A stretch of DNA of 64,000 bases, from the NCBI RefSeq assembly GCF_024346315.1, contig NZ_JAGQCS010000007.1:1-64000 (forward strand). Direction: 5' to 3'. The position numbers and the translations under genes were made by a program. The stretch is from Cyanobium sp. ATX 6F1 (lineage in GTDB: Bacteria > Cyanobacteriota > Cyanobacteriia > PCC-6307 > Cyanobiaceae). The notes beneath the pieces were generated by a model, which was given only the letters and a program-made list of their open reading frames with translations, had not been told where the DNA came from and did no database searches. The stretch's first letter is position 1. Each line of letters begins with the position of its first letter. Positions 16,205 through 38,715 of the stretch are shown one piece after another.

Positions 16205-16206
16205 AT

Positions 16207-16224: not shown

Positions 16225-16260
16225 AAGGGGATGGCCCCCTCACCCCTCGCTCCCTGGGTC

Positions 16261-19304: not shown

Positions 19305-20419
19305 GCCACACCTCCTGCGGTCATCGCTGCGGCGCCGGTGGCCGCATCAAGGGGCGCTGGGGGGGGCGCTGAGGAGGTCGCTGGGGGGGAACGCAGCGCT
19401 TCGGCGATCTGGATCGCATTCAGGGCCGCGCCTTTGCGGATCTGATCGCCGCAGAGCCACAGCTCGAGCGCATGGGGATCGCTGAGGTCCTGGCGGATTC
19501 GACCCACCGCCACCAGATCCCGGCCGGTGACGTCGGTGGGCATGGGGAAGCGGTTGGTCTCGAAGTTCTCGATCAGCTCAACCCCCGGCGCCACCGCCAG
19601 CAGGGAGCGGGCCTCCTCCACCGGGAAGGGCTCACGGAACTGGATGTTCACCGCCTCGGAATGGGCCCGCAGCACCGGCACCCGCACACAGGTGGCCGAC
19701 AGACGCAGATCGGGCAAGCCCATGATCTTGCGGGTCTCGTTGAGCATCTTCAGTTCCTCCTCGCAGTAGCCATTGGCCTGCAGAGGGGAGTTGTGCAGGA
19801 AGAGGTTGAAGGCCAGGGAGTGGGGCAGCACCGTGCTCACCGGTTCACCCCCTTCGAGCACGGTGCGGCTGAGCTCCCGCAGCTCCTCCATCGCCCGGGC
19901 CCCGGCGCCGCTGGCGGACTGATAGGTGCTGACCACAACCCGCTCGATCGGCCTGCGGGCAGCCAGAGGGGCCAGGGCCAACGTGAGCAGGATCGTGGTG
20001 CAGTTGGGGTTGGCGATGATGCCGCTGTGCTCGAAAGCGGCCTCGGGGTTCACCTCCGGCACCACCAGGGGCACGGCGGGATCGAGGCGGAAGGCGCTGG
20101 AGTTGTCGATCACCACGGCACCGGCCGCGGCCGCCAGGGGAGCCCACTGCTTCGACACCGAGCCGCCGGCGGAGGCCAGCACCAGATCCATCCCCTCGAA
20201 GGCGGCGGCGCTCACCGGCTGAACCGTGAGGGTCTGACCGTTCCATTCGACCGTCTGGCCGGCGGAGCGGGGAGAAGCGAGCAGGATCAGCTCGGCCACC
20301 GGAAAGTGGCGCTCGCTCAGCAGGGCAAGCAACTCCTGACCCACCGCTCCTGTGGCGCCGAGCACGACGACGCGGAGGGGGCGCTCAGGCAGGGATCGGG
20401 AGTGAGCGGTAACGGACAA
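19301..20419 (-). CDS. asd: Aspartate-semialdehyde dehydrogenase
   Basis: 372 residues. It reduces aspartyl phosphate to aspartate semialdehyde with [17 protein letters not shown] is the nucleotide-binding turn, ASAGGSVSK follows, [10 protein letters not shown] carries the catalytic Cys, [10 protein letters not shown] the substrate loop, and [14 protein letters not shown] the active-site His. The last 35 residues are an Ala/Pro-rich tail beyond the usual C-terminus. It leads the asd-dapA-rnj run. Its promoter must lie in the 276-bp region shared with divergent tig. Confidence 0.94.
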
Positions 20420-20695
20420 CGGGGTGAAACAGCGACATCAAGACGAAACCAGCCCGAAGCACCAGGAAGGCAGAGCTGAATGGGATGGCCGGAGTGGAGC
20501 GGTTGGGATTGGGTCGGGGGGTGGCGGAAGCGGACGAAAGGTGGTGAAAGCTGGAATCAGGGAAGGTCGCTGGGGGAGATGCCGGCCCGGCGTAGAACTT
20601 CAAGTTGACTGTGATCAACAATACGTGGCCGTGCGTCCCTTGGCGAGAGGGCCGCTTTCTAGGATCACAGGCTGCCCCGCCGATCCCCTGCGTCC
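20420..20695. promoter_or_regulatory. Shared control region of divergent asd and tig
   Basis: 276 bp between two divergent transcripts. A small inverted repeat GTTGA-ctgtga-TCAAC lies at 20604-20619, about 77 bp before the tig ATG, in a locally AT-richer patch. Its outer TTGACT (20605-20610) resembles a -35 box but I see no well-spaced -10. No coding signal is evident. Confidence 0.4.
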
Positions 20696-22138
20696 ATGAG
20701 CACCGCCTTGAAGGTCAAAACCAGCCCCAGGCCCGCCAGCCGGGTGGCGCTGGAGGTGGCCATCCCTGCCGGCCGCAGCCAGGCCAGCTATGACGCGGCC
20801 GTGGAGAAACTCAGCCGCACGGTGCGTCTGCCGGGTTTCCGCAAGGGCAAGGTGCCCCGCCCCGTGCTGCTGCAGCAGATCGGCCCCCTGCGCGTGCGCG
20901 CCACCGCCCTCGAAGAGCTGGTGGACAGCGTCTGGCGGGACGCCCTGGCCCAGGAGAAAATCGAAGCCCTCGGCAGTCCGGAGCTGAGCGAAGGCTTCGA
21001 CACCCTGCTGGCGCGCTTCAACCCCGGCGAGGAGCTCACCCTCACCCTCGAGCTCGATGTGGAGCCCACCCCGACGCTGCGCGCCACCAAAGGGCTGGTG
21101 GCCGAAGCCGAGGCGGTGGCCTATGACCCGGCCCGGGTGGATGAACTGATCGAGCAGTCCCGCAAGCAGCTGGCCACCCTGGTGCCCCTGGAGGGCCGCG
21201 CCGCCGCCAGCGGCGATGTGGCGGTGGTCAATTTCACCGGCACCTTCGCTGACAGCGGCGAAGCCATCAGCGGTGGCAGCGGCGAGGCCCTGGAGGTGGA
21301 GCTGGAGGAAGGCCGCATGATCCCCGGTTTCGTGGAGGGGATCCTGGGTCAGGCCATCGGCGAGACCCGCACGATCAGCTGCACCTTCCCCGAGGAGTAC
21401 GCCCAGGAGGAGGCCCGCGGCCGCGGGGCCTCGTTCGAGATCACCCTCACCGAACTCAAGGGCCGGGAACTGCCGGCCCTTGATGACGCCTTCGCCCAGC
21501 AGGCCAGCGACAAAACCACCCTGGCCGAGCTGCGCGCCGACCTGGAGACCCGGCTGCGGGAGGACGCCGAGCGCCGGGCCAAGGGCAACCGCCACGACGC
21601 CCTGCTCAAGGCCCTGGTGGTGGAGCTGGAGGTGGAGCTGCCCGAGACCTTGATCCAGCAGGAAATCCGCTCCCTGCTCGAGCAGACCGCGAGCCAGATC
21701 GCCCAGCAGGGCATGGACATCAAGAAACTGTTCACCCCTGAGCTGGTGCGCAGCCTGCAGGAGACCTCCCGGCCCGAGGCCGAGGAACGCCTGCGCCGCA
21801 GCCTGGCCCTCAAGGCCCTGGCCGCCGCCGAATCGATCGCCCTCGAGCCCCAGGAGATCGACGCCAAGGTCAAGGAGCTGAGCCAGGGCTTCAGCGACAG
21901 CGCCAACATCGACCCGGTCCGCCTGAGGGAAGCGGTGAGCGAAGACCTGCTGCGGGACAAGCTGCTGGGCTGGTTGGAAACCCACAGCACCGTGAGCGAA
22001 AAGGCCCCCGCCAGCGACGCTGACAGCGCTGATGAGGCTGGGGAAAAGCCCGCCAAGGCCAAGGCCAAAGCCAAGGGCAAAGCCGACAAGGGCGACCAAT
22101 CCGAACAGGCCGGCAAGGCCAAAGCGGCCGAGGGCTGA
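20696..22138 (+). CDS. tig: Trigger factor chaperone
   Basis: 480 residues. A ribosome-bound chaperone and peptidyl-prolyl isomerase. The ribosome-docking signature GFRKGKVP is near residue 45; the FKBP-like domain spans about 165-250 ([31 protein letters not shown]), and the helical arms follow. The C-terminus ends in a Lys/Ala-rich tail ([13 protein letters not shown]), common in picocyanobacteria. It heads the widespread tig-clpP-clpX order, coupling nascent-chain folding with proteolysis. Confidence 0.95.
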
Positions 22139-22215
22139 GTCGTCCCACCGGCTCTCCCCGTCCAGTGGCGCCGAATAGATTGAATTCACTCCCCTTCCCC
22201 CCTGCCGGCGCACGC

Positions 22216-22872
22216 GTGATCCAGGCTTTTCAATCCCACCCGATCTCGAACCGCTGGCAGGGGCCTCGGCCGGTGTCGTCCCCCGGGATCCTTCCCACGG
22301 TGGTGGAGCAATCCGGCCGCGGTGATCGCGCCTTCGACATCTATTCCCGCCTGCTGCGGGAGCGCATCATCTTCCTGGGCACCGACATCAATGACGGGGT
22401 CGCCGATTCGCTGGTGGCCCAGCTGCTGTTCCTCGAAGCCGAGGACCCGGAAAAGGACATTCAGATCTACATCAACTCCCCCGGGGGCTCGGTGACCTCG
22501 GGGCTGGCCATCTACGACACCATGCAGCAGGTGGCCCCGGATGTGGTCACCATCTGTTACGGCCTGGCGGCCAGCATGGGGGCCTTCCTGCTCTCCGGCG
22601 GTACCAAGGGCAAGCGCCTGGCCCTGCCCAATGCCCGAATCATGATCCACCAGCCCCTGGGTGGGGCCCAGGGCCAGGCCGTCGACATCGAGATCCAGGC
22701 CAAGGAGATCCTGTTCCTCAAGGACACCCTCAACGGCCTGATGGCCGAGCACACGGGCCAGCCGCTCGACAAGATCACCGAAGACACTGACCGGGACTAC
22801 TTTCTTTCTCCTGCGGAGGCGGTTGAATACGGCCTGATTGATCGTGTGATGGTGGAAGCCCATCCGGTCTGA
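22216..22872 (+). CDS. clpP: ATP-dependent Clp protease proteolytic subunit
   Basis: 218 residues from the GTG at 22216; an earlier in-frame GTG at 22165 would add 17 residues with no family match. Mature sequence begins around [22 protein letters not shown]. Catalytic Ser lies in [12 protein letters not shown] and His in [14 protein letters not shown]; the Asp lies in the later [10 protein letters not shown] region. It forms the proteolytic barrel served by ClpX, encoded 89 bp downstream. Its full catalytic triad separates it from ClpR-type subunits. Confidence 0.93.
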
Positions 22873-22961
22873 TCCCGAATCAACCGAGCCGAGCCGACTC
22901 CCGCGGCTGATTCATTCCCCCAGGGCCTCCCCCCTCCACTCAGAACGCAACATCCCGCGCG

Positions 22962-24308
<1,347 letters not shown>

Positions 24309-24314
<6 letters not shown>

Positions 24315-24330
24315 GCCTGAGCCTGAGCCT
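24309..24330 (+). repeat. GCCTGA hexamer tandem repeat at the clpX stop
   Basis: Three perfect GCCTGA units (24309-24326) plus a partial fourth. The first unit supplies the clpX stop codon. Copy-number slippage would change only the 3' untranslated part. There is no sign of function. Confidence 0.7.
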
Positions 24331-24418
24331 GGCGGGAACGGCAATCCCCACCCCACCGGCCCTGGGGCCTTGGGCCCGTCAGGGCGAAGCTGAGAGCACC
24401 CCATTCCCCGCTTAAGCC

Positions 24419-25084
24419 TTGGCCGCCGCCGACCACCTGCAGGCCCCGCGCCAGCACGGTCTGTTCAACCACCACGGCATCGATCTGGGAGATGGCACCG
24501 TGGCCCATTACCTGGAAGGGCGCCAGATTCTGCGCAGCCCGGTGGAGGAGTTCAGCCGCGGCCAGCCTCTGATCGTGGTGCCCTACGCCGAAGCCTCCCC
24601 CCCCGGGGTGACCCTGCGGCGGGCCATGGGGAGACTCGGGGAGCAGCGCTACAACCTGCTGTTCAACAACTGTGAGCACTTCGCGATCTGGTGCAAGACC
24701 GGTCGACACCGCAGCCCCCAGGTGGAGGACTGGCTCCACACCGGCAGCCTCGGTGCCCTGGCCATCGGCCAGTTCATGCCCGCGGCCCTGATCGCCGCGG
24801 TGCGACTGCTGCTGCGCCAGGGGCTCAACCTCGATGGCGAACAGCTGGAGCGGGGTCGGGCGTTGGCCCTGCGCAGCCTCGAGCAGCTGGATGCCCTGCG
24901 GCTGATGTTGCAGGAGCGGCTGGAGAAGGAACTGGCCCAGGCGGAGACCTGGTGGGGAGGGGGCCAGGCCTCGGTCAACGAGGGGCTGCTGCGGGCGGCC
25001 CGCAGCCTGGCCGACCAGCTCACCACCGTGGAGGAACTGGAGGGGAAGCTCAACCGGCTGCTGGAGGCCGGCAAGCCTGAGTAA
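24419..25084 (+). CDS. LRAT-domain (NlpC/P60-superfamily) acyltransferase-like protein
   Basis: 221 residues from a TTG. The first 100 residues fit the LRAT domain: GLFNHHGIDLGDGTVAHY supplies the catalytic His region and YNLLFNNCEHFAIWCKTG the nucleophile Cys with the usual NCEHFA signature. Such enzymes move acyl groups between lipids or cleave lipid esters through a thioester. A hydrophobic segment (about 121-142) and a long helical region (145-220) follow and may bind membrane. It sits alone between clpX and dnaX. The substrate is unknown and the start is the least certain part. Confidence 0.75.
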   Translation: MAAADHLQAPRQHGLFNHHGIDLGDGTVAHYLEGRQILRSPVEEFSRGQPLIVVPYAEASPPGVTLRRAMGRLGEQRYNLLFNNCEHFAIWCKTGRHRSPQVEDWLHTGSLGALAIGQFMPAALIAAVRLLLRQGLNLDGEQLERGRALALRSLEQLDALRLMLQERLEKELAQAETWWGGGQASVNEGLLRAARSLADQLTTVEELEGKLNRLLEAGKPE

Positions 25085-25117
25085 TCTCAGGTCCATGGCC
25101 ACCCCAGGGACAGACCG

Positions 25118-26983
25118 ATGACCCAGGCCAGTCCTTATCAGCCCCTGCACCACAAGTACAGACCCCAGAGGTTCGACCAGCTGGTGGGGCAGGAGGCGAT
25201 CGCGGCCACCCTCACCCAGGCGCTGCAGCAGAACCGAATCGCGCCGGCCTACCTGTTCAGCGGTCCGCGCGGCACCGGCAAGACCTCCAGTGCCCGGATC
25301 CTCGCCCGCTCGCTCAATTGCCTGGCCAGCGAAGGGCCGACCGCGGAGCCCTGCGGCAGCTGTTCCCTCTGCACCTCCATCGCCGCCGGCAATGCCCTTG
25401 ATGTGATCGAGATCGACGCGGCCTCCAACACCGGTGTCGACAACATCCGAGAGCTGATCGAGCGTTCCCGCTTCGCGCCGGTGCAGGCCCGCTGGAAGGT
25501 CTACGTGATCGACGAATGTCACATGCTCTCCACGGCGGCCTTCAACGCCCTGCTCAAGACCCTGGAGGAGCCGCCACCGCGGGTGGTGTTCGTGCTGGCC
25601 ACCACCGACCCCCAGCGGGTGCTGCCCACGATTCTGTCGCGCTGCCAGCGCTTCGATTTCCGCCGCATTCCCCTGGAGGCCCTGGAGACCCACCTGCGCT
25701 TCATCGCTGGGGCCGAATCCATCGGCATCACACCCGAGGCCCTGCACGTGGTGTCCCAGCGGGCCCAGGGGGGACTGCGGGATGCCGAAAGCCTGCTGGA
25801 TCAACTGAGCCTGCTGCCGGCACCGATCGAAGCTGTGGCCGTGTGGGATCTGCTGGGGGCCGTGCCCGAGCAGGACCTGCTGGAACTGGCGGAGTCCCTG
25901 GCGACGGGTGAGCCCCTGGGGGTGATCGAAGCCACCCGCCGGCTGCTAGAGCGGGGACGGGAGCCCGGCGCCGTGCTCCAGGGCCTGGCGGGGTTGCTGC
26001 GGGATCTCGTCCTGGCGCGGGTGGCCCCTGAGCGCCCCGAATTGAGCAGCTTCTCGCCCCAGTTCAGGCCGCGGTTGGCACCCCTGGCCGCCGCCATCGA
26101 CCCCGATCGGCTGCTGCGCTGGCAAAGCCAGCTCAAGGGCAGCGAGCAGCAACTGCGTCAAAGCGTGCAGCCCCGGCTGTGGCTGGAAGTGCTGCTGCTG
26201 GGGCTGCTGGCGGAACCGGCAGCGGCCAGTGCTTCGGCCACGGCCACCAAGGTGCCAGCGACTGCAACGGCAGCCGCTCCGGTGCGAATGGACGTGCGCG
26301 CCGCCAATCAGCCGGCGGCACCTGCACGAGTGGCACCTGCACCAGTGGCAACTGTGCCAGCGGCACCAGAGCCAGCGGCCGAGGCCGAACCCCCGCCAGT
26401 CCCGAAGATCGCCACCCCCCCTCCAGCGAGCGGCGAGATCCCCCTGAGCGAGCTCTGGCAACAGATGCTGGCCGCCCTGGAGCTGCCGTCAACGCGCATG
26501 TTGCTCTCCCAGCAGGCCGAGCTAGTGCGGCTGGATGGTCAGCGGGCCGTGGTGCGGGTGGCGACCACCTGGATGGCGATGGTGCAGAGCCGTCTTCCTC
26601 TGCTGGAGAAGGCGGTGGCCACCACCCTGGGGAGCCCCCGCCAACTGGTTCTGGAGGGGGCCGCTCCGGCAACCGTGCCCGCCTCGGCGATGCCTGCTGC
26701 TGCTCAGCCCCCGGCCCAGGCCAGCCCCCAACCTTCTCCCCCTGTACGACAGGCGCAAACGGCAGCTGTTCCGATCTTGCCCATCCCGAGCCCCCCAGCG
26801 CATGATCGGGCCGGGGCGGCAACCCCGGCGCCTGAGGCCGCTGCCAACGCAGGGCAGCAGCTCGCCCCTGGTGGCGCACAGACGCGCAATCCACTGGATG
26901 AAAACGCCCGCCGACTGGCGGAATTCTTCAACGGAGAGGTTGTGGAGCTGGATGGCCCCCTGGAGGATGGGGAAGCGGCCTGA
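25118..26983 (+). CDS. dnaX: DNA polymerase III subunits gamma/tau
   Basis: 621 residues. ATPase of the clamp loader: HKYRPQRFDQLVGQ, Walker A FSGPRGTGKTSSARI, zinc module CGSCSLC, Walker B VYVIDECHMLS, and LLKTLEEPPPRVVFVLATT. The middle (about 370-450) is an Ala/Pro/Val low-complexity linker with tandem repeats. After it lies a tau-like C-terminal domain (IPLSELWQQMLAALE), then a second Pro/Ala linker. No intein is present, unlike in some cyanobacterial DnaX. I see no clear A-rich slippery site, so a separate gamma product is doubtful. Confidence 0.94.
   Translation: MTQASPYQPLHHKYRPQRFDQLVGQEAIAATLTQALQQNRIAPAYLFSGPRGTGKTSSARILARSLNCLASEGPTAEPCGSCSLCTSIAAGNALDVIEIDAASNTGVDNIRELIERSRFAPVQARWKVYVIDECHMLSTAAFNALLKTLEEPPPRVVFVLATTDPQRVLPTILSRCQRFDFRRIPLEALETHLRFIAGAESIGITPEALHVVSQRAQGGLRDAESLLDQLSLLPAPIEAVAVWDLLGAVPEQDLLELAESLATGEPLGVIEATRRLLERGREPGAVLQGLAGLLRDLVLARVAPERPELSSFSPQFRPRLAPLAAAIDPDRLLRWQSQLKGSEQQLRQSVQPRLWLEVLLLGLLAEPAAASASATATKVPATATAAAPVRMDVRAANQPAAPARVAPAPVATVPAAPEPAAEAEPPPVPKIATPPPASGEIPLSELWQQMLAALELPSTRMLLSQQAELVRLDGQRAVVRVATTWMAMVQSRLPLLEKAVATTLGSPRQLVLEGAAPATVPASAMPAAAQPPAQASPQPSPPVRQAQTAAVPILPIPSPPAHDRAGAATPAPEAAANAGQQLAPGGAQTRNPLDENARRLAEFFNGEVVELDGPLEDGEAA
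26305..26380 (+). repeat. Degenerate Ala/Pro/Val repeats in the dnaX linker
   Basis: Units close to GTGGCACCTGCACCA recur here and encode alternating Ala-Pro-Val (APARVAPAPVATVPAAPEPA). They lie between the ATPase/collar part and the tau-like end, where a flexible spacer is expected. Confidence 0.6.
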
Positions 26984-26989
26984 GAACGT

Positions 26990-28855
26990 TCAGGACCAGA
27001 AGTTTTCCAGATCGAGATCTTCGATCTGCTGCTTGGCTTCGCGGAAAAATGTGCTGCTGGTCAGCTTCTCGACATCCTGTTGTTTCTTGCCCTGATCGAT
27101 CTCGACCTTAAGTTCGCGCAACTGACGCTCCAGGGATTCCTCGCGCAACTTGCGATCGGTCACATCCCGCGCAATGCCCTCCAGATAGAGCGTCTTGCCG
27201 GCCGCATCCTTCACCAGCCGAGCATCCAGTTCGAGCCAGATGCTGTCGCCGTCCTCCCGTAGGGTCGAATACACGAAATCGGTCAAGGTACCATCGCGCT
27301 TCAGCCGCTCCTGAAGTTCAGTGACCACCTCAGGATTCTGAAAGAACTGAGTATTGACATCCTTCACAGACGCCAGCATCTCCTTGGTGGAGTGGTATCC
27401 GTAGATGTCCGCAAGGGCGGGATTAGCGCGCAGCAGGCGACCCTCAACACTGGACTGGAAGATGCCATCTTGAGCATTCTCGAAGATGCTGCGAAAGTTC
27501 TCCTCCGCCAAGGTGAGCTCAAGGTTCGATTGCTCCAGCGCCGTGAACGATGCCTGCAGCTGGTGGGTCATGTTGTTGAAGGAGCCCGCCAGCTGATCGA
27601 TCTCGATAATCACGCTTGGATCAACTGTCTGATTGAGGTCTCCAGCCGCAAGCCGCCTGGCTGCCTGGGAAATCTTTTCAATTGGATTGGTGACCCACTG
27701 GGAGGAAGCCAGGCCAAGAAACACCGCAAACACCAACGAACCAACGCAAAGGAAGATGGTGGTCTTGGAGTTGGCCTCAATCTGGCCCATGAAATCAGCT
27801 TCAGGTGTGACCACCATCAGCAGCCACTGCAAACCCTTGCCATCTTCAAGCGGTGAAACCCTCATCAATTCCCTGTCGCCATCTAGCTTGAACTCGTATT
27901 GATGGCTCTCGTAAACGCGACTGTAGCTTCCCAAATTCTCGTTGATGACACCCATGGCGCCCCTGAGCATGGGATCGGTGGACTCACTGGCGAGCAGACG
28001 CTGTCGTTGGTCCCCTTTTCCTACGATCAGGGGCTGGTTGGGTGAAGACGAGGCGATCAGCTCACCCGTGCGCTCAAAGATGTAGACCTTGCTATTGCGG
28101 CTGACCTTCAAGGAGCGAAGAAATTGGCTGATCTGATCCAAGCTGATCTGAGTATTAAAAATCCCAAGTAGCTTGCCGCCCGGGCCAAAGTAAGGAGAAA
28201 CGGCATTTAACTGAAGATTGTCATAACCAAAATTGACCGTAACAGGCCCCCAGGTGGGGCGACGGGCAGCAACTGCGGCCTTGAACAAGGGAGAGTCCTT
28301 GGCATCAAAGTTAGAGCGAACCTTCTCCACATCTGCTGGATTGCCGGAGCGATCCAGCCCGTAATAAACCAGATCTCCCGAACCTGGCTTGAGTTGAAGA
28401 GCTAGCTGTGGATCCTCATCGGAAGCAAAGCGATTGTTGGCCCAACCAATACGGATGAAGCGACCCTCACGGTCAACCAGACCTGAGTAACCGATATCGT
28501 TGAAGGCATTGACCTGCTTCCAGAGGAAGGGGCGGGCCGCATCAATGTTGTCAAATCTGATCAACCCCAGGCTGGCAGCATTCGCATTCAGCGCATTGAC
28601 GCGGTGGGGAGTGTTGAGAAAATTAGTGACCCGCACCAAAACTTGTTTGGAGATCGAGTCCTGGAGCTGCGCCGCCAATTCATTGACCGCCCGCTGGCTA
28701 TGGCGAAACGACAGAAAGCCAACCAGACCCACCGTGGCCACAGTCTGCAAGACAAAAGGAACCACCAAGTAGGTGCGGAGGTTCAGGCGAAAGGCTTGAA
28801 AACTCAATGCCTTGTACCAGCTGGACTTAGGTTCTAGGTGGTTCTGGGTGGTCAT
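26990..28855 (-). CDS. Membrane sensor: Cache, HAMP, PAS, no recognised output domain
   Basis: 621 residues. TM1 at about 28-50, a large extracytoplasmic double-Cache-like region (about 60-360, with RPTWGPVTVNFGYDNLQLNAVSP and the second lobe SKVYIFERTGELIASS), TM2 at 366-388, HAMP at 388-440, a PAS domain at 450-570 (NFRSIFENAQDGIFQSS to GIARDVTDRK), then a coiled coil and the tail VEKLTSSTFFREAKQQIE ending DLENFWS. There is no histidine kinase, GGDEF, cyclase or methyl-accepting domain, so the signal must leave through a partner. It is convergent with dnaX (6 bp). Lower GC than its neighbours; glsA and the ParA-like gene lie upstream on the same strand. Confidence 0.8.
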   Translation of the reverse strand: MTTQNHLEPKSSWYKALSFQAFRLNLRTYLVVPFVLQTVATVGLVGFLSFRHSQRAVNELAAQLQDSISKQVLVRVTNFLNTPHRVNALNANAASLGLIRFDNIDAARPFLWKQVNAFNDIGYSGLVDREGRFIRIGWANNRFASDEDPQLALQLKPGSGDLVYYGLDRSGNPADVEKVRSNFDAKDSPLFKAAVAARRPTWGPVTVNFGYDNLQLNAVSPYFGPGGKLLGIFNTQISLDQISQFLRSLKVSRNSKVYIFERTGELIASSSPNQPLIVGKGDQRQRLLASESTDPMLRGAMGVINENLGSYSRVYESHQYEFKLDGDRELMRVSPLEDGKGLQWLLMVVTPEADFMGQIEANSKTTIFLCVGSLVFAVFLGLASSQWVTNPIEKISQAARRLAAGDLNQTVDPSVIIEIDQLAGSFNNMTHQLQASFTALEQSNLELTLAEENFRSIFENAQDGIFQSSVEGRLLRANPALADIYGYHSTKEMLASVKDVNTQFFQNPEVVTELQERLKRDGTLTDFVYSTLREDGDSIWLELDARLVKDAAGKTLYLEGIARDVTDRKLREESLERQLRELKVEIDQGKKQQDVEKLTSSTFFREAKQQIEDLDLENFWS

Positions 28856-29048
28856 GCCATTAGCAGCCGTGGCCTTTGCCTATCGTTTGGTCTACTACAG
28901 CCGCACTTAAAGCTTCGGTATACAGGCATGCGCATGGACCAATGTCTATCCAACTGCCACTGCCTCAACTGAGACCAAACCAGGTGTCAACAGCAAAAGA
29001 ACCCATGACCATGGTGAGTCGCCCCACGCAGCATGGACGTGCCGTAAC
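28856..29048 (-). promoter_or_regulatory. Gap between glutaminase and sensor genes
   Basis: 193 bp, AT-richer than the rest of the window. On the minus strand TTGACA (a consensus -35 hexamer, complement of 28984-28989) is present but I see no -10 at proper spacing. The gap is large enough for the sensor to have its own promoter. No small gene is evident. Confidence 0.35.
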
Positions 29049-30080
29049 TTACCAGCCAAGGGAGTCATGGTCTCCATTCATCCAGGTGACAAGGTCGTGC
29101 TTGGGTGTGGCCGTGTTGAACATATGCAGGCCAAAATCCCGTGAAATCTCCTCACAAACCTTGATCCCTCGGGTGCTGTTGCCCTTGGCATCGAGGGGCG
29201 GAGAATAGATGCCGATACCCAGCTTGCCTGAGGCCACCGCCGTGATCCCACCGGCGACCCCACTCTTGGCTGGAATGCCCACCCGGTAGGCCCATTCTCC
29301 CGAGGCATCGTACATGCCACAGGTGAGCATCAAACTAATCACATCTTGTACATAGCGTTCTTCGATGGCTCGAATGCCCGTGACGGGGTTCACACCGCCG
29401 TTGGCCAGGGTCGCTGACATCATGGCCAAATCCTTGGCGTTGACCAACATGGAGCATTGCTGAAAGTAAAGATCCAGCGTTTCATCAATCTTCTCGCTGA
29501 CCATGGAGAAGTTCAGCATCAGAAAAGCCATGGCCCGATTGCGATGACCGGTCTCTTTTTCCGAAAGAAACACGGGGACATTAATGTCATGGGCACGGCC
29601 GGTGTAGCGCCCGAACATCTCGAGGATGCGCTTGAGGCGCTCGGTGCCGTTGCGACCCTTGATCAGATCTGTGGTAGCGATCGCCCCGGAATTAACCATG
29701 GGGTTGTAGGGGCGATTGGTCGCCTCATCAAGAATGATCGAGTTGAAGGCTTCACCCGTGGGCTCCATGCCCACTTTGCTATTCACATACTTGCGACCGT
29801 GATCTTCAAGAGCAAGACCAAAAACGAAGGCTTTTGAAATTGACTGGATCGTAAAAGTTTTATCGCAGTCTCCAACTTCGAAGGTCTGACCATCCGTGCT
29901 GACCACGCAAATCCCAAATGAATCGGCGCTGGCTAACGCAAGCTCAGGAATGTAATCAGCTACCCTGCCTTTCTTGAGGCCGCGATGCTTATTATAAAGA
30001 TCATTGAGATAACTCCTGAAAGGGGAGGCCACCGCATTGATCGAGCTGGCGAGTGTAACAAAACTCCTTAGATCTGTCAT
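29049..30080 (-). CDS. glsA: Glutaminase (serine-dependent, GlsA family)
   Basis: 343 residues. It hydrolyses glutamine to glutamate and ammonia. The catalytic SxxK pair is Ser80 and Lys83 in TFTIQSISKAF; YNPMVNSGAI follows at about 125-134, and the C-terminal VGIPAKSGVAGGI block completes the penicillin-binding-protein-like site. The last 35 residues (GLHMFNTATPKHDLVTWM) are the usual short end; there is no STAS or ankyrin extension. The start lies 3 bp after the ParA-like gene, and its GGAAGG ribosome site lies inside that gene, so the two are translationally coupled. Lower GC than flanking genes. Confidence 0.92.
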   Translation of the reverse strand: MTDLRSFVTLASSINAVASPFRSYLNDLYNKHRGLKKGRVADYIPELALASADSFGICVVSTDGQTFEVGDCDKTFTIQSISKAFVFGLALEDHGRKYVNSKVGMEPTGEAFNSIILDEATNRPYNPMVNSGAIATTDLIKGRNGTERLKRILEMFGRYTGRAHDINVPVFLSEKETGHRNRAMAFLMLNFSMVSEKIDETLDLYFQQCSMLVNAKDLAMMSATLANGGVNPVTGIRAIEERYVQDVISLMLTCGMYDASGEWAYRVGIPAKSGVAGGITAVASGKLGIGIYSPPLDAKGNSTRGIKVCEEISRDFGLHMFNTATPKHDLVTWMNGDHDSLGW

Positions 30081-30083
30081 GAC

Positions 30084-30845
30084 TCAACTACCTTCCATGA
30101 TGGACTTGGCAACGAGCTTGAACTCCTGAGTCAATGGGTGATCAGGATACTTGACGCAGAAAACACCCTCACTGGCCAAGCGGGCAAAGTCTTCAGAAAG
30201 AGGAAAGACTCCAGCCACCGCTTCGCCATAGGTTTCTGCCACTTTGGCTCGCAATGCATCCAGATTCAGTCCACTGTGGGCCTTATTGATGGCCAGCAAT
30301 AAACGTCGGACCTTCAGCTGCCTAGCCACATCGACGGTGACCGCAGTTCCTTGGTAATCCTGTTTGTCAGGGCGCAGAATCAGCAGCAGTACATGGGAGA
30401 TGGCAATCGAAAGGAAGGTTTCCTTGGAAAGCCCTGGGTGGGTATCGATGAACAGGAAATCAAGCTTGAGCTCTCGAACGAGATTCCTGAATCCGTCGTT
30501 CATCTTGCTCACATCATAGCCCACCTGAAGAATGCGTGAAATGTCATCGGGCTTCACACTGGAGGGAACCAGGAAGATCTGACCTGGAAGCTCGATGCCC
30601 ACCTTGGCGCTGACATCGTAAGCAGCCTCTGCAATGGACGCTTCATCCCAGAGGAAATCATTCAGCGTTTTGCCTATTTCATCTTGCTCAAGGCAGAACA
30701 GGTTGTGAATACCTGGCGAGGGCACATCGGTATCAATCACGCCAACTCGAAAACCCTGAGCCGCAACAGTCGTAGCCAGATTAGCCGTGAAATTCGACTT
30801 CCCGGTGCCCCCGCGGTAGGAATGAACGGAGACGACTTTTGGCAT
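30084..30845 (-). CDS. MinD/ParA-like ATPase with Arg in place of the signature Lys
   Basis: 253 residues from MPKVVSVHSY; the frame opens 8 codons earlier but the family starts here. The deviant Walker A reads YRGGTGKSNFTANLA: Arg11 replaces the Lys that defines MinD/ParA dimers, while Lys16 of the P-loop is kept. The A' motif is VIDTDVPSPGIH (Asp38, Asp40), and FIDTHPGLSKET is Walker B. ADP/ATP-driven dimerisation or positioning is likely. No MinD membrane-targeting helix or ParB partner is visible. It leads a cluster with glsA and the Cache sensor. Arg11 may change hydrolysis or partner control. Confidence 0.82.
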   Translation of the reverse strand: MPKVVSVHSYRGGTGKSNFTANLATTVAAQGFRVGVIDTDVPSPGIHNLFCLEQDEIGKTLNDFLWDEASIAEAAYDVSAKVGIELPGQIFLVPSSVKPDDISRILQVGYDVSKMNDGFRNLVRELKLDFLFIDTHPGLSKETFLSIAISHVLLLILRPDKQDYQGTAVTVDVARQLKVRRLLLAINKAHSGLNLDALRAKVAETYGEAVAGVFPLSEDFARLASEGVFCVKYPDHPLTQEFKLVAKSIMEGS

Positions 30846-31064
30846 TGCCACCCTTGAGTTCAGAAACAACTAAGCGTTGCCCGACCCCCTTGCGGTAACG
30901 AGCGCTACCAAGAATGCCGGCCTGGTCGGCGGAGGCTCCCCAGGTGTCCAAATGGTTCGGCCATTGGATCACGAATCGTTCAGTCTTGGGGACGGTTGCA
31001 ACCATTACCATCGTTTGGGCCCTCAGCCTGCGATGAAAGGCGTGGCTGAGCCCCTAGCGCGCCC
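30846..31064. promoter_or_regulatory. Divergent control region (ParA-like gene / TerB-like gene)
   Basis: 219 bp shared by two divergent genes. It contains a perfect 10-bp palindrome GGTTGCAACC (30994-31003) and an imperfect hairpin CCAAATGG-ttcgg-CCATTGG just to its left. Either could be an operator for the low-GC cluster. No coding potential stands out. Confidence 0.4.
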
Positions 31065-31463
31065 ATGGATCCTTCTCGTGCCCTTGCCGCTGTCGCCCTG
31101 GCCTCCGTCGCCTGGGATGGGGTGATGGGCAGCGCTGGAGCCCGCGCCCTGCGCCACTCCCTCGACTACCGCTCCCCCTACCGGGAACGCAGCGACCAGG
31201 AGATGATCGCCCTGATGAACGATTTGCTCCTGAGCCTCAAGGCACAAGGTGCCGAAGCCCTGTTGCTGGAGGCTGGCGCCGCCTTGGATGGGCCCCAACG
31301 GCTGACCGCCTTCGCCATGGCGACGGAGATCATGCGCTCGGACGGTCCCCTGGTGGAGGAAGAACAGCGCATTCTCGACCACCTGTCGGAGGCTTTGGAA
31401 CTGAGCGCTGACGAAACAAGCACAATCATGGAGGTGATGAACATCCTCCACGCGAGTCTTTAG
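31065..31463 (+). CDS. TerB-family tellurite-resistance-like protein
   Basis: 132 residues, all helical. The second half carries the TerB pattern: LTAFAMATEIMRSDGPLVEEEQRILDHLSEALELS, with the acidic loop typical of TerB metal-binding helices. Isolated TerB domains are common in cyanobacteria without any ter operon and are thought to act in stress or membrane-linked sensing. The N-terminus (ALAAVALASVAWDGVMGSAG) is mildly hydrophobic. It is convergent with a glycosyltransferase gene. The specific role is unknown. Confidence 0.75.
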   Translation: MDPSRALAAVALASVAWDGVMGSAGARALRHSLDYRSPYRERSDQEMIALMNDLLLSLKAQGAEALLLEAGAALDGPQRLTAFAMATEIMRSDGPLVEEEQRILDHLSEALELSADETSTIMEVMNILHASL

Positions 31464-31470
31464 GAGCCCA

Positions 31471-31485
31471 GGCCAGAGGCTGGCC
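31471..31485. terminator. Hairpin between convergent TerB-like and glycosyltransferase genes
   Basis: GGCCAG-AGG-CTGGCC is a perfect 6-bp stem with a 3-base loop in the 34-bp gap between the two stop codons. There is no T tract on either strand, so it is only a possible bidirectional transcript end. Confidence 0.4.
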
Positions 31486-31497
31486 GCGGCCCCAATT

Positions 31498-32853
31498 TCA
31501 GGAGGCCTGGGTGCTCAGATCGCTTTCGGGCAGGGTGCCCAGATGCAGGGTCTTGGCCCAGACCAGTCGCTTGGGCAGCACCGCCATGCGCAGGCACACC
31601 CAGGGAATGACCACGAACCAGTGGAGCAGGTAAAGCATGACCAGGGCGAGGGAGGCCGGATTGGCCTCGGGCAGGGGCGGGCCCTCGCTGCTCCGCTGGC
31701 AGGCCTGAAGAATCGCCACCCCCGAGAGGCCGAGGACCACCAGGGACAGGGGCCAGAAGGCCGGCAGGGTGCGCGTCACAAGGGACGCGGCCAGGTCCGC
31801 CACCGCCACCACCGGCAGCACGTATTGCAACAGGAAAAAGCTGCTGAGATCGAGCTTGCCGGAGAGGCTGACGCGGCCGGAGACCAGGCCTGGCCAGTAA
31901 TCGAAGAAGCGCTGCAGACCCCCTTCGGCCCAACGCTGGCGTTGTCGCCAGAGGGCCCGGAGACTGAGAACGGCCTCCTCCTGCACCGGTGGGTCCCAGA
32001 GCACGCCGATCGAACGGCCGGCGAGCAACAGCCTGAAACTGAGGTCCAGATCGTCGGTGACGGTGGCCTCGTTGAATCCGCCGCAGGCCTGGATCGCCTC
32101 TCTGAGAAGCAATTGGCCGTTCCCCCGCAGTTCAGCGATGCCGCCGCCATCAAGGCGGCCCTGCTGCACCACCGCATCAAGGGCCATCTCCATCGCCTGC
32201 GCCCGGGCGAGCAGGTTGACCTCACCGTTGACCACGGCCTTGCGCAGTTGCACCGCTGACCAAACACCTTGCTCGGCAAAGGGGATCAACCGCTCGAGCA
32301 CATCGCTCTGAAGCTGGGCATCGGCATCGAGCACCAACATCCAGCGGCTCTTGAGCTGGGCCAGCACGGTGTTGAGGGCACCGGATTTACCCCCCCCCGC
32401 CTCGCGGTTGCGGCGCACCAGATGCAAAAAGGGATGCTCCCGCCTGAGCTCCTCGAGCAGTTCCGGGGTGCGGTCCTCACTGCCGTCATCGACCACCCAG
32501 AGCTGCAACCGACCGGCGGGGTATCGGAGCTGGGCGATGCGCTCCACCAGACGACCAATCACCGCCTCCTCATCGCGGGCCGCCACCACCACATCGACGG
32601 ACGGCAACGCTGCGTCCCCATCAAGGTTCGACGGGGGCTGGGCGGCCTCGGTCTCACCCTGGCGGCGGCGGGCCCCCAGGAGCACCGTGCGGAAGCTGTA
32701 GATCCCGAGCAACAGGGTCAAGGTGAGCGCCGGCAGAACGCTGCGGCCCCCGCTGAGGCCATGGGGCGCCACCCCGGCCGCCACGCAGGCGATCAGGAAC
32801 ACCGAAGCCTTGACCCGTCGGCGATCGGTCCCCGTGCTGCCGTTCACGGCCAT
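31498..32853 (-). CDS. Membrane-bound family 2 glycosyltransferase
   Basis: 451 residues. Two N-terminal membrane segments precede a GT-A domain with DVVVAARDEEAVIGRLV, LWVVDDGSEDRT, LVLDADAQL (DxD), TVTDDLDLSFRLL (catalytic TDD) and QRQRW, the QxxRW motif of processive enzymes. Three or four C-terminal membrane helices follow. The layout matches polysaccharide or carotenoid/lipid glycosyltransferases of the cellulose-synthase-like group. The sugar and acceptor cannot be read from the sequence. Its 3' neighbour is convergent and it is 38 bp from the SpoIID-domain gene upstream. Confidence 0.82.
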   Translation of the reverse strand: MAVNGSTGTDRRRVKASVFLIACVAAGVAPHGLSGGRSVLPALTLTLLLGIYSFRTVLLGARRRQGETEAAQPPSNLDGDAALPSVDVVVAARDEEAVIGRLVERIAQLRYPAGRLQLWVVDDGSEDRTPELLEELRREHPFLHLVRRNREAGGGKSGALNTVLAQLKSRWMLVLDADAQLQSDVLERLIPFAEQGVWSAVQLRKAVVNGEVNLLARAQAMEMALDAVVQQGRLDGGGIAELRGNGQLLLREAIQACGGFNEATVTDDLDLSFRLLLAGRSIGVLWDPPVQEEAVLSLRALWRQRQRWAEGGLQRFFDYWPGLVSGRVSLSGKLDLSSFFLLQYVLPVVAVADLAASLVTRTLPAFWPLSLVVLGLSGVAILQACQRSSEGPPLPEANPASLALVMLYLLHWFVVIPWVCLRMAVLPKRLVWAKTLHLGTLPESDLSTQAS

Positions 32854-32891
32854 GGCCGACCCAAAAGTTGAGGAAGTTTAGGGGCCGCGGT

Positions 32892-34463
32892 TTAGGGATC
32901 CAGCAGAAGGCCCTGGAGGCTCTCAAGCTTGGTGCCGGAGTAATAGTGCTGAAGGATCCGGCCTGAAGGCCAGCCCCGCCGGGCCAGATCCATGGCCCCG
33001 GCCTGGGAGAGCCCAGCTCCATGGCCGAAGCCGCCCCCCACGAAGCTCCAGCGGCCCGGGCCATCCGGCGCCACCACAAACAGGGTGCTGGGCAGCCGGC
33101 GGAAGGCGCGCCGGATCGCATCGAAGCGCAGCACCACCCGGCCCGCGGTCCCCTGCATCTGCAGGGCAAGCACGCGACCGCTGGCCCCCCGCTCCAGCAC
33201 GGTCAGCCGTTGGGGCACGCCGAGGGCAGCGGCCTGGGGACCGAGGGCCGCTCTGATTCGATCCCGGTCCAGGGAGCGCCGCCAACGGAACAGCGGGTGA
33301 TCGCTGCCGTAGGCCGCGCCACCTTCTTGAAGCAGCTGGCGGAGGCGGGCAGGTTCACTGAGGGGCACGGCGAAGCTGCGCTCGAAAGGAGCTGGACCAT
33401 CGGGTCGGGTCTGCAGATAGGGCAGTGGGGCGCCCCCCCAGGCCTCCTCGAACCCGGCCGCCACCCCGCCATTGCTGGCGTGGTACACCGCATGGATGGG
33501 CTGCCCCTGCCAGATCAGCACCTGGAATCGAGTGGCCGCAATCGCCTGGCGCACAGCCGCGCCCGCCTGGCGGGGATCGGCGTAGACCTGGCATTGGGTA
33601 TCGGCGCAGAGGTGGTACCCATCCACCCTGAAACGCTGACGGTTGCGCAGGGCCCAGGTGCGGGCCAGCACCGCCTGGGCCTGGAGGGCGGCGGCGGGAG
33701 CCTCGGCGCCGATCTCATGGGGCAACACCCCCAGGAGGTAACGCTCCAGTGGGACCTGCTCGATCAGGCTCCAGCTGCCATAGGCATCGCTCTGGAGCCG
33801 AAACGGCCCCTGGTAGAGCCCACCGGCCCAGCGCAGCCCTGATGGCGCGCTCAGCCGCAGGGGGCCCTCCAGGGTCCTCAGGCCCAACGACTCCCGAACG
33901 GCGAGCACCAGCCGCTCCGTGATCCGGGCCCGCTGCTGACGAGCAGCCAGCCGGCTGCCCCCAAGGGTCGGTGGCAGCGCATCCGGGCCGCCCCAGACCT
34001 CCCAGTCGCCAGGTTTGGCGATCACGGGGCTGATTCCCTGTTGGCGCCAGGCCTCGGCCACCTGCTCGGCGCGCTCGTAGCTGGGGAACGGACCCAGCAC
34101 CGTGCGCTGGAGGTTGAGGGGTTCCTTGAGGGGAACCCGCCGCCAGAGCAACCCCAGGCTGGAGCCCCGCAGCTGGCGACCCGAGGCCTCTGTGAGCGTC
34201 AGTGGGCCCGATGGACTCACCAGGGTCAACGGGGGCGCCGCTGCGGGATCGCTGTCCGGCCTGGGGCCCAGGTGGGCCGCCAGCGCGACCCAGAGCACCG
34301 GCTCGGTGCGGCTCAGCGCCGGCGGGGCAGGCACCGGCCAATGCAGCAGCGAGCTGGCACGACAGCCCTGGGCCAGCAGCAGCAAACCCCCCAGGGCCGC
34401 TCCGCCCAGGAGCGCGGTCCCCTGGATCGGGCGCCGCAGATTGAGCATCAGGGACGAAGACAT
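32892..34463 (-). CDS. SpoIID/LytB-domain secreted protein
   Basis: 523 residues from [14 protein letters not shown]. An N-terminal hydrophobic stretch ([15 protein letters not shown]) acts as a signal, with a weak lipobox-like end. A SPOR-like pair-repeat region ([22 protein letters not shown]) precedes the SpoIID domain: [36 protein letters not shown] region, [21 protein letters not shown], and a C-terminal [21 protein letters not shown]. SpoIID enzymes are lytic transglycosylases acting on denuded glycan strands. In a non-sporulating cyanobacterium it likely remodels peptidoglycan. Divergent from rpmI. Confidence 0.85.
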
Positions 34464-34539
34464 CGACGAACGGGCGCCAGGGAGTTGGCGGAAGGCTGGT
34501 CCGCGTCGTAGTTTGCTTGTTTGTGCCCGACCACGAGCC

Positions 34540-34740
34540 ATGCCCAAGCTGAAGACCCGCAAAGCTGCCGCCAAGCGGTTCAAGGCGACAGGCACCGGGA
34601 AGTTCATGCGCCGTCGCGCCTTCCTGAACCATCTGCTCGATCACAAGAGTCCCAAGCGCAAGCGCTACCTGGGCACCATGGCCGTCGTCGACGAGCGCGA
34701 TGCCGACAACGTGCGGGCGATGTTGCCCTACAGCCGCTGA
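34540..34740 (+). CDS. rpmI: 50S ribosomal protein L35
   Basis: 66 residues, highly basic, starting [20 protein letters not shown] and ending RAMLPYSR, as in bacterial L35. The long open frame upstream is spurious; the ATG at 34540 gives the family start. rplT follows 41 bp downstream in the usual rpmI-rplT order; infC is not adjacent. The promoter must lie in the 76 bp shared with the divergent SpoIID gene. Confidence 0.97.
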
Positions 34741-34781
34741 GCCCCAGCTGCGCTCCGTTTCCATTCCTTTACTGAACTCCC

Positions 34782-35129
34782 ATGGCCCGCGTCAAAAGGG
34801 GCAACGTTGCCCGTAAACGCCGTAACAAGATCCTTCGCCTGGCCCGTGGCTTCCGGGGCGGCAATGGTTCGCTGTTCCGCACGGCCAACCAGCGGGTGAT
34901 GAAAGCCCTCTGCAATGCCTACCGCGACCGTCGCCGGCGCAAGCGCGACTTCCGCCGCCTCTGGATTGCCCGCATCAACGCCGCCGCCCGCCTCAACGGC
35001 CTCAGCTACAGCCGCCTGATTGGCGGGCTCAAGAAGGCCGATGTGCAGCTGAACCGCAAGATGCTCGCTCAACTCGCCGTCATCGATCCCAGCAGCTTCA
35101 GCAACGTGGTCAGCGCCGCCAAGGGCTGA
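34782..35129 (+). CDS. rplT: 50S ribosomal protein L20
   Basis: 115 residues: [26 protein letters not shown], the basic N-terminal helix that threads into 23S rRNA, then [21 protein letters not shown] and [13 protein letters not shown]. Length is normal. It follows rpmI closely and is followed 20 bp later by a Ycf37-like gene. Confidence 0.97.
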
Positions 35130-35149
35130 CCATCCTCTCGATAGGCCCG

Positions 35150-35737
35150 ATGGATCGGCTCCTTCCCCAGGCCTACCTCCTAGGTCTGGTCGTTCTGCTC
35201 GCTGGGGCGGCCGTCCTGGTCGGCCTGCAGATCCTGCGGGTGCGTAAGGACGAGCAGTCCCTGGTCCGTCTGGAGGGCAAGAGCAAGGCCAGCGCCACCG
35301 ACGCGGCTGATTTCTATGAGCTGGCCTCTGTGCAGTTGCGCAAACGCCTCTACCCCCAGGCGGCGGCCAACCTCAAGCTGGCTGCGAAACGGGCCGAAGG
35401 GGAGCCCCCCGAAGCCCAGGCCGTGATCCAGAACGCCCTCGGCTTCGCCCTGGCCGCCCAGAGCAACTACGCCGCTGCGATCAAGCACTACCGCTCCGCC
35501 CTGCGCTCGAAGCCCAACTACCCCGTGGCCCTCAACAACCTGGCCTACGCCCTGGAAAACCAGCGCCAGAACGAGGAAGCCAAGGCCATCTACGAGCAGG
35601 TGCTTCAACTCGATGACACCAACAAAACCGCCCGCAAGCGACTCAAGGGACTTGAGCGCAGGCAGGGTGTTCCCCTCGCCCCCTTGAGCGCAAAGGAGGG
35701 CCTGGGCGTGGGCGGCGACCCTAAAAGAAAAGCCTGA
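35150..35737 (+). CDS. Ycf37-like TPR membrane protein
   Basis: 195 residues. One N-terminal membrane helix (AYLLGLVVLLAGAAVLVGLQIL, about 8-29) and then three TPR units: DFYELASVQLRKRLYPQAAANL, VIQNALGFALAAQSNYAAAIKHY and VALNNLAYALENQRQNEEAKAIY. This is the layout of Ycf37, a thylakoid factor linked to photosystem I assembly. The C-terminus is a short charged tail. I am fairly sure of the family but not of function in this strain. Confidence 0.75.
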   Translation: MDRLLPQAYLLGLVVLLAGAAVLVGLQILRVRKDEQSLVRLEGKSKASATDAADFYELASVQLRKRLYPQAAANLKLAAKRAEGEPPEAQAVIQNALGFALAAQSNYAAAIKHYRSALRSKPNYPVALNNLAYALENQRQNEEAKAIYEQVLQLDDTNKTARKRLKGLERRQGVPLAPLSAKEGLGVGGDPKRKA

Positions 35738-35769
35738 ACCGTTGGGCGATCGCCCCTTGGGCTAAGGCC

Positions 35770-36303
35770 TCACCAGAGGCCCCGGACGGGGACCGCCTTG
35801 CGAATCACCGGCCTCGGAGCAGGGGGTCGGAGGTCGAGCACACCGCCTGGGTGGGTCAGGCGCGGGGCATTCCAGCCGGCCAGATACACGCCCTGCAGGC
35901 CTTGAAAGGCCCCGCCGAGTTCGAGGGCGGAGTCTGGGTTGCCTTCGAGGGGAAGTAGATCCAATTGATCCGACTTGGCGTTGAAGTTGCCCTGCACCGG
36001 CATAGTGACGCCGGCGACGGTGAGTTCACCGCGCAGGTCGAGCATCTGTCCCATCGGCACCACCGAAGCGAGCCGCAACTCCGCCGGCACCACCCGACCA
36101 TCGATGAACGATTGGTAGGTGCCCGTCCAGGTGCGGGGAATGCTGAGCGCCAGGTCCTGGGCCCGCGCCACAGGATCGAAGGTTTCCACCGGCCCCAGTT
36201 CCGACTGGAAGGCCGAAATCGCCGCCATCGGGGCCACGGCCGGCGCATTGAACGGCACCACACTGCCCACGGGAAGGGGGACGGCGGCCAGCAGCACGGG
36301 CAT
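35770..36303 (-). CDS. Secreted protein of unknown function
   Basis: 177 residues. The first 25 ([18 protein letters not shown] then NAPAVA) look like a weak signal sequence. The body is beta-rich: [40 protein letters not shown], then DLLPLEG and [16 protein letters not shown], suggesting a small beta-barrel or sandwich of periplasmic type. I recognise no named family. Its stop lies in a small hairpin (35766-35781) in the gap to the convergent Ycf37-like gene. Confidence 0.65.
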
Positions 36304-36378
36304 GGCAAAACAGATTCAGTTATTCCCAGGCTAAGAGCTGTGGCGCCAAAAGGAATCCCCGGGCAGTACGTTCGCAGC

Positions 36379-37293
36379 ATGGCCCCCTTTGCCGATCCCA
36401 GCTCCCCCATCGATCCCAGCCGTCCCGACCCCAGCAACTTCGGCAGCGCTCACGCTCCTGCCGCTGGCGCCCCGGGCGAGGACGAGGTCCTTGTGATCGG
36501 GGGCCGGCGATTCTCGAGCCGGTTGATGACCGGCACCGGCAAGTACCCCAGCCTTGAGGTGATGCAGGCCAGCCTTGAGGCCAGCGCCTGCTCGATCGTC
36601 ACCGTGGCGGTGCGCCGGGTGCAGGCCGCGGCCGCCGGCCACCAGGGCCTGATCGAGGCCATTGATTGGAGCCGGTTCTGGATGCTGCCGAACACCGCCG
36701 GCTGCGCCACCGCCGAGGAGGCCGTGCGGGTGGCCCGGCTCGGCCGCGAGCTGGCCAAGCTCGCCGGCCAGGAGGACAACAGCTTCGTGAAGCTGGAGGT
36801 GATTCCCGACAGCCGCCACCTGCTCCCGGACCCCTTCGGCACCCTGGAGGCCGCTGAGCGCCTGGTGGCCGAGGGCTTCACGGTGTTGCCCTACATCAAC
36901 GCCGATCCGCTGCTGGCCAAGCGGCTGGAGGATGTGGGCTGCGCCACCGTGATGCCCCTGGGGTCGCCGATCGGCTCGGGGCAGGGCATCCGCAACGCCG
37001 CCAACATCGGCCTGATCATCGAAAATGCCCAGGTGCCCGTGGTGGTGGACGCAGGCATCGGCGTTCCCAGTGAGGCCGCCCAGGCGATGGAGCTGGGGGC
37101 CGATGCCTTGCTGATCAACAGCGCCATCGCCCTGGCGGGAGATCCCGCCGCCATGGCTCGGGCCATGGCCCTGGCCACCCTGGCTGGCCGTACCGCCTTT
37201 CGAGCCGGCCGCCTGCCGGTACGCCCCGACGCCAGACCCAGTTCACCCGTCCAGGGCAGGGTGGGTCAGCAGCCATGGGCCGAGCAGCCATGA
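36379..37293 (+). CDS. thiG: Thiazole synthase
   Basis: 304 residues. It forms the thiazole phosphate of thiamine from DXP, dehydroglycine and ThiS-thiocarboxylate. The barrel begins after a 35-residue Pro/Ala-rich leader; landmarks are [51 protein letters not shown] (Schiff-base Lys), [29 protein letters not shown] and [21 protein letters not shown] chose the ATG at 36379; the frame runs upstream without family match. thiL of the same pathway lies at 56032. Confidence 0.95.
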
Positions 37294-37477
37294 AGTTTCC
37301 TGCCCACTTGGCTTTGGCGCGAACGGACGCTGCCTAGGGCGATCGGCGGGGGACGCTGGCGGCACTGATGGTGGCCCTGGCCTTCAAGCTGAGCTGAGCC
37401 CGGCAGCGTCACGGGCATCACCCGTTGCGGCGGAATGCCTGTAGTAGCTTCGATTCAATGAGCACGCGCTCGTTCTT

Positions 37478-37483
37478 GAGGAG
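37478..37483 (+). promoter_or_regulatory. Strong ribosome binding site of sqdB
   Basis: GAGGAG lies 6 bp before the GTG at 37490. This supports the GTG start, since no ATG is near the family N-terminus MKVLVLGGDGFCGW. Confidence 0.7.
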
Positions 37484-37489
37484 TCAAGG

Positions 37490-38686: not shown

Positions 38687-38715
38687 GTCACGGTCCATCC
38701 CCCTGCGCGGCAAGT

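Follow-up and report, generated by a model that had tools for sequence, protein, structure and literature searches.

A 64,000-nucleotide stretch of the genome of Cyanobium sp. ATX 6F1 (contig NZ_JAGQCS010000007.1; hereafter the window) carries three adjacent minus-strand genes, which encode a ParA/MinD-family ATPase, a glutaminase A (GlsA) and a membrane sensor. We found that this sensor ends in a short tail that recurs on sensory proteins of many kinds, almost exclusively in genomes that also encode a relative of the ATPase. The tail is probably a portable output module that docks on the ATPase, with the glutaminase as a second tagged client. The order of the genes is conserved, the co-occurrence of tail and ATPase is near-obligate, the subtypes of tail match ATPase clades, and the glutaminases linked to one of these clades (ParA-I) have a clade-specific tryptophan end. 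From these observations we infer physical docking, a competing or bridging relation of the two tagged clients, positioning in space and control of the glutaminase. The features of the locus are as follows.

30084-30845, minus strand: ParA/MinD-family ATPase of the GlsA-linked clade (ParA-I); ATG start, with a TTG at 30869 also open
29049-30080, minus strand: glutaminase A (glsA), 343 residues, matching PF04960 and TIGR03814, with an acidic C-terminal stretch ending in Trp343
29049-29117, minus strand: residues 322-343 of GlsA, a C-terminal extension that includes the last-residue Trp
28856-29048, minus strand: spacer of 193 bp between glsA and the sensor gene
26990-28855, minus strand: membrane sensor, 621 residues, with dCache_1, HAMP and PAS domains followed by the C-terminal tail
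26990-27145, minus strand: sensor tail, residues 571-621, REESLERQLRELKVEIDQGKKQQDVEKLTSSTFFREAKQQIEDLDLENFWS, type I (acidic, ending ..FW)

A sequence-only reading of this DNA had described three linked genes that might form a nutrient-sensing module, and its account of the locus is borne out. The genes are real, correctly placed and lower in guanine-plus-cytosine (GC) content than their flanks (0.51-0.55 versus 0.63-0.72, in 1-kb steps, with flanks at 15000-26999 and 31000-44999). The ATPase gene and glsA are separated by 3 bp, with a GGAAGG stretch resembling a ribosome-binding site inside the ATPase gene ahead of glsA, and the sensor indeed combines dCache_1, HAMP and PAS with no kinase, cyclase, GGDEF or methyl-accepting chemotaxis protein (MCP) output among its Pfam matches (E ≤ 0.001). 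A terminator in the 193-bp gap would have spoken against the linkage, and a simple consensus scan shows no terminator-like site on the minus strand there. The proposed functional link among the three genes stands in part: gene order is conserved and the tail co-occurs with the ATPase even when unlinked, but the conserved element is the short tail and not this kind of sensor, because Cache, HAMP and PAS are replaced by other inputs elsewhere. The tail beyond the PAS domain, the Arg that replaces the signature Lys of the ATPase and the C-terminal Trp of the glutaminase had gone unremarked. As that reading suggested, the arrangement may serve to sense nutrients and to control the breakdown of glutamine.

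Pfam matches to the sensor end at residue 569 of 621, and the final 51 residues form the tail. Its consensus, RExxLxxQLxELxIEIDQxKRxxQVAEITESDYFQxLQxEAxxLR, begins with a heptad-like segment and contains one Asp and one Phe that are invariant across 24 diverse rows. Searches with phmmer and with a profile recovered the same tail in very different proteins encoded beside relatives of the ATPase, and it lies within 15 residues of the C-terminus in 106 of 120 distinct tailed open reading frames (ORFs; counts exclude the tail of locus L165, E 0.011). The proteins that end in it are of the dCache-HAMP-PAS, Tll0287-HAMP, CHASE2, kinase, FHA, cNMP-binding and bare HAMP kinds. Among 92 of the 120 ORFs, selected by alignment for a Pfam scan (E ≤ 0.001; 25 of the 36 domain families found are considered), HAMP occurs in 56, PAS in 46, dCache_1 in 32, the Tll0287 heme-Cache domain in 11 and CHASE2 in eight, followed by receiver (four), cNMP-binding, FHA, GAF and HisKA (three each) and protein kinase (two) domains. 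The Cyanobium genome itself has a single match to the tail profile at E ≤ 1e-3, with an E value of 9.7e-17.

That the tail is an already known element was ruled out, given no PDB match below E 0.3 and no tail family among the Pfam matches listed (those 25 of 36 families); two Pfam matches below cut-off (E 0.006-0.007) in example tailed proteins touch the tail. In six loci (L013, L016, L017 and L153-L155) the DYFxxLQ-like part of the tail is repeated in the stretch that follows, and these repeats suggest several putative binding sites.

Tail and ATPase are distributed together. Among 292 genomes of the phylum, 39 have both, two have only the ATPase, none has only the tail and 251 have neither (Fisher test, 1.7e-46; ATPase family at E ≤ 1e-15 in 41 genomes, tail at E ≤ 1e-3 in 39), where the counts, here and below, are of genomes and not of independent events. 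A draw of 388 genomes from the class gave 155 with both, eight with only the ATPase, six with only the tail and 219 with neither; without the genomes of the first draw, the first three numbers are 121, six and six. The Jaccard index is 0.95 for tail and ATPase, compared with 0.32 in a control that pairs any GlsA with the ATPase. The distance to an ATPase gene is within 5 kb at only 30 of 61 tail places, the other 31 being farther away (two at 7.7 and 9.3 kb) or on another contig, and in 16 of the 39 tail genomes every tail is more than 5 kb from the ATPase or on other contigs. Linkage alone therefore does not explain the co-occurrence, and its persistence at unlinked sites also rules out an ordinary operon of unrelated genes. 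Both comparative checks proposed with the sequence-only reading came out in its favor, the order of ATPase, glutaminase and tailed sensor being kept in many cyanobacteria and the sensor tail tracking the ATPase almost perfectly, also where they are unlinked. By gene order and by co-occurrence, the ATPase has a dedicated partner, as do positioning systems of the ParA-ParB kind.

When the search was repeated with a broader tail profile, two of the eight ATPase-only genomes, G288 and G526, proved to have a tail, at 1e-8. In G423, an ATPase-only genome, the C-terminus of the ATPase diverges from the family, and neither GlsA nor tail was found in a stretch of 14 kb. The tail also stands beside the ATPase on a Deinococcus plasmid with two tails and on a Rhizobium plasmid, where a tailed ORF of 145 residues overlaps the ATPase gene by 4 bp. 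The Deinococcus plasmid encodes a second, more distant ATPase (L168:9380-10147, plus strand; E 1e-33, SFMRGTGKST) immediately after the first tailed gene.

Subtypes of the tail follow the phylogeny of the ATPase. In a tree of 97 ATPases (22 of 119 rows were removed as more than 92% alike), the GlsA-linked ATPases fall in a clade of 48 rows, ParA-I, with support 100/99; 42 of the 48 come from GlsA-bearing loci, and the only GlsA-linked exception to the clade is a locus with two ATPases. Sensor tails of this clade end in ..DEFW. Tails ending in an acidic stretch and ..FW make up 47 of 50 near ParA-I versus two of 49 near other members, and these two lie beside a cut copy of the window ATPase (L004) and beside a ParA-GlsA remnant (L122). 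The latter, an ORF of 418 residues (G111:C112:87273-88484), was rejected as a fusion, having only residues 28-172 of ParA and 80-343 of GlsA; next to a ..FW-tailed gene on the opposite strand, it looks like the remnant of a deletion. One genome (G011) has ParA-I and GlsA in a 13-kb locus that lacks a tail, but it still fits the matching of subtypes because its seven tails include one, carried by an unlinked protein of 141 residues, that ends in ..FW.

The two subtypes differ in charge. Across pattern-matched tails only (48 and 70, up to 14 residues each), the tail end has a mean net charge of -2.8 in the ..FW or type I form and +1.9 in type II (range -4 to +5). With the thresholds applied, 17 positions separate ParA-I from the remaining ATPases, including Lys141 and His151 immediately behind Walker B, both present in the window ATPase; outside ParA-I, position 141 is Glu in 58 of 61 and position 151 is Asp in 53 of 61. 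Judged from these residues, the opposite charges at the tail end and at ATPase positions 141 and 151 would fit charge pairing between the two.

Structure predictions point in the same direction. AlphaFold2 was applied to two natural tail-spacer-ATPase stretches from relatives, and the first model adopts the MinD/ParA fold, matching MinD, Soj and FleN in the PDB with Z scores of 23-26 (MinD ~26), a comparison that concerns a relative's protein and covers little beyond its ATPase part. The tail core is predicted with local confidence (predicted local distance difference test) of 85-96 as a non-helical IEID stretch followed by two helices, and the spacer has low confidence. The predicted template modelling scores are 0.79 and 0.88, compared with ~0.72 and ~0.78 expected from the share of the chain taken by the ATPase alone; this excess in score may reflect predicted docking of the tail on the ATPase.

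How the ATPase acts is the point on which the best-surviving alternative turns. The protein matches PF10609 (2.9e-15, above the curated cut-off), PF13614 and PF01656 and so belongs to the ParA/MinD family by profile, with archaeal MinD (1hyq) as its nearest PDB sequence. Its Walker A motif, HSYRGGTGKSN, has Arg11 where the signature Lys would stand and retains the Walker Lys16. Among 128 complete ORFs of relatives (duplicates included; four open-ended ORFs and one set aside by length), 127 have HS[YF]RGGTGKSN and one (L091) has HSYRGGTGKTH, so that the deviant Walker A motif with its signature Lys, KGGxxK[S/T], is replaced by an Arg version in all 128; an earlier count on 119 distinct ATPases demanded GG.GKS and so left out L091. 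In the available part of PMC9178275, McdA and BcsQ also deviate at the signature position, and the Arg resembles BcsQ (RGG) and not most ParA proteins. Several relatives on Deinococcus, Streptomyces and Nostoc plasmids (L168, L170, L171 and L172) are encoded in a conserved neighborhood beside an AGE epimerase, STAS or anti-sigma-antagonist proteins and the glycogen debranching enzyme GlgX, with a SpoIIE phosphatase added in three loci and GlgB in the two from Streptomyces, which suggests control of enzymes. Because of the invariant Arg and this neighborhood, a regulatory subunit like BcsQ or FleN, which would gate enzymes or complexes by binding tails and not position them, is a serious rival; it falls somewhat short of an even chance, since fold and motifs overall are closest to MinD/ParA.

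The glutaminase could instead be a metabolic passenger in an operon whose real partners are tail and ATPase, which we regard as possible though doubtful. The enzyme itself is unambiguous by profile (PF04960 at 2e-120, above the curated cut-off; TIGR03814 at 363 bits, cut-off 255) and has a conserved SISK motif, which we take to be the catalytic SxxK motif of GlsA. Loci of ATPases outside ParA-I are mostly without GlsA, and glutaminases of the same subfamily (at least 73% identity) occur without ATPase and tail in five of ten genomes, as a passenger would. Among the 56 closest loci (L036-L091, picked by ATPase similarity), however, GlsA is the next gene downstream of ParA-I in 47 of the 50 with enough DNA, 31 of 44 have a tailed gene after GlsA, and 38 of 44 have a tail anywhere in the locus. 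A Trp lies within the last four residues of 48 of 50 ParA-linked glutaminases versus two of 24 unlinked ones (25 loci fetched, of which L234 gave no complete frame). L091 lacks the ..FW of the tail as well as the Trp of GlsA; L064 has the tail ..FW but lacks the Trp. The L091 contig, titled Betaproteobacteria, encodes the ATPase, GlsA and a tailed FHA protein, by transfer or through a binning error. A further and longer frame with a glutaminase is present in the Cyanobium genome (L236, C4:122309-123238; 626 residues, 49% identity), and neither an ATPase relative nor a tail was found on its contig.

That the tail is a mere coiled-coil cap or dimerization element of HAMP and PAS proteins, making no contact with the ATPase, accords with its heptad-like start and the prevalence of these two domains among its hosts, but is very improbable given its absence from all 251 genomes of the first draw that lack the ATPase, its presence on FHA, cNMP-binding, CHASE2 and kinase proteins and its co-occurrence with the ATPase at unlinked sites.

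Several findings nevertheless weigh against docking of the tail on the ATPase with the glutaminase as a second client, the free-standing glutaminases among them. Three ParA-I loci (L048, L062 and L077) have type II tails. Position 141 is Arg or Lys in three type II relatives, with type II tails in both of these loci that have one. The differences between ParA-I and type II are a single historical event because ParA-I is one clade. Four of the five closest unlinked comparators of GlsA come from one genus, leaving few for the Trp end. Six ATPase-only genomes persist after the broader tail search. The six tail-only genomes comprise four with a completeness of 79-95%, assembled in 220-720 contigs, and two (G331 and G399) with one of 99%; in five of them the top-matching ATPase carries an ordinary KGGVGK[ST] motif, and in the sixth such a motif was not found. 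On four of six plasmids (two from Streptomyces, one from Nostoc and one from Pseudanabaena), the 10.8-14.8 kb that surround the ATPase gene contain no tail; the Streptomyces ATPases are more distant relatives (35-36% identity), and of five such relatives the two that were examined have no tail in 14.75 kb. Finally, the folding runs spanned a read-through intergenic spacer and had no negative control.

Under the docking model, a stimulus read by the Cache and PAS domains would most likely travel via HAMP and the coiled opening segment of the tail before reaching the ATPase. Engagement of the tail with the ATP-bound dimer would change, altering the cycle or the distribution of the ATPase. In the ParA-I clade the ATPase would also hold the Trp-ended glutaminase, whose location or activity would then shift via the ATPase. 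Many other cyanobacterial sensors of different kinds would rely on the same tail where a kinase, cyclase or chemoreceptor domain might otherwise form the output. We give an even chance to a still broader proposal, a general and undescribed class of bacterial output in which many one-component sensors (Cache, heme-Cache, CHASE2, PAS, FHA and cNMP-binding) signal by one common docking tail to a dedicated RGGTGKS ParA/MinD ATPase that controls or places tagged metabolic enzymes, here the Trp-ended glutaminase and elsewhere perhaps glycogen enzymes with STAS/SpoIIE modules.

Orphan ParA-like ATPases that organize sensors are known, and gene neighborhood serves as a guide to their cargo, as the available parts of PMC9178275 and PMC10241942, respectively, describe. 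PpfA-TlpT of Rhodobacter sphaeroides and ParC-ParP of Vibrio (PMC9178275, in the same part) likewise combine an orphan ParA-like ATPase with a partner and act on sensory proteins. Unlike these systems, the present one has no MCP, CheA or CheW among the domains seen, one tail is common to unrelated sensor types, and Walker A reads RGGTGKS in place of the KGGVGKT of PpfA. MinD-MinE and ParA-ParB share with it the MinD/ParA fold (Z ~26) and a short partner segment; however, their signature Lys is Arg here, and the partners docked in PMC10241942 were represented by their N-terminal 30 residues, according to the portion at hand, whereas the segment described here is C-terminal and portable. McdA-McdB of carboxysomes also pairs a ParA-type ATPase that is non-canonical at the signature position (SGGQGKT in McdA) with a dedicated partner, again per the available PMC9178275 text, but the partners here are sensors with transmembrane or signaling domains. 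The sCache_heme (Tll0287)-HAMP proteins of PMC12889525 have the same input domain as the 11 heme-Cache tailed proteins, an example of which also has HAMP; the accessible part of that paper names no such tail, and 'MinD' occurs zero times in its main text.

Our literature search, part of which was noisy owing to the word-starts 'mind' and 'para', returned no description of the tail or of an ATPase of this kind with a glutaminase. Compared with known orphan ParA-like systems, what appears new, as far as that search reached, is a portable C-terminal tail that occurs on sensors of many types and goes with a single ATPase clade.

The three genes look like a low-GC insertion at the junction of dnaX and a glycosyltransferase gene. 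In 26 of 29 dnaX loci from other genomes of the family, the DnaX and glycosyltransferase matches are at most 500 bp apart; in two they are 1.3-1.6 kb apart, and one has no glycosyltransferase match in a short flank. None of these 29 loci has ParA, GlsA or a TerB-like gene at the dnaX site. A complete insert occupies the same site in Cyanobium sp. Morenito 9A2 (L036), whose ATPase is 90% identical. A small protein encoded at 31065-31463 of the window (plus strand), with a sub-threshold TerB match (8.3e-5), accompanies the trio there as well. The simplest reading, with two genomes compared, is that this genus acquired the trio together with the small TerB-like gene. A viral origin of the trio was considered and dropped, as a scan of viral contigs for close relatives gave none.

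Sensors that end after HAMP or PAS commonly have no assigned output. Our findings suggest that bacterial sensors pass signals through a tail and a ParA/MinD-like ATPase, a route that has not been described, and the recipient of the signal from the window sensor is probably the glutamine-splitting enzyme. Should the tail prove to be an output module, HAMP- and PAS-ended sensors in cyanobacteria and beyond would gain an assigned downstream partner, and signal transduction would gain a ParA/MinD branch. It would also provide a testable link from an outside cue to the breakdown of glutamine.

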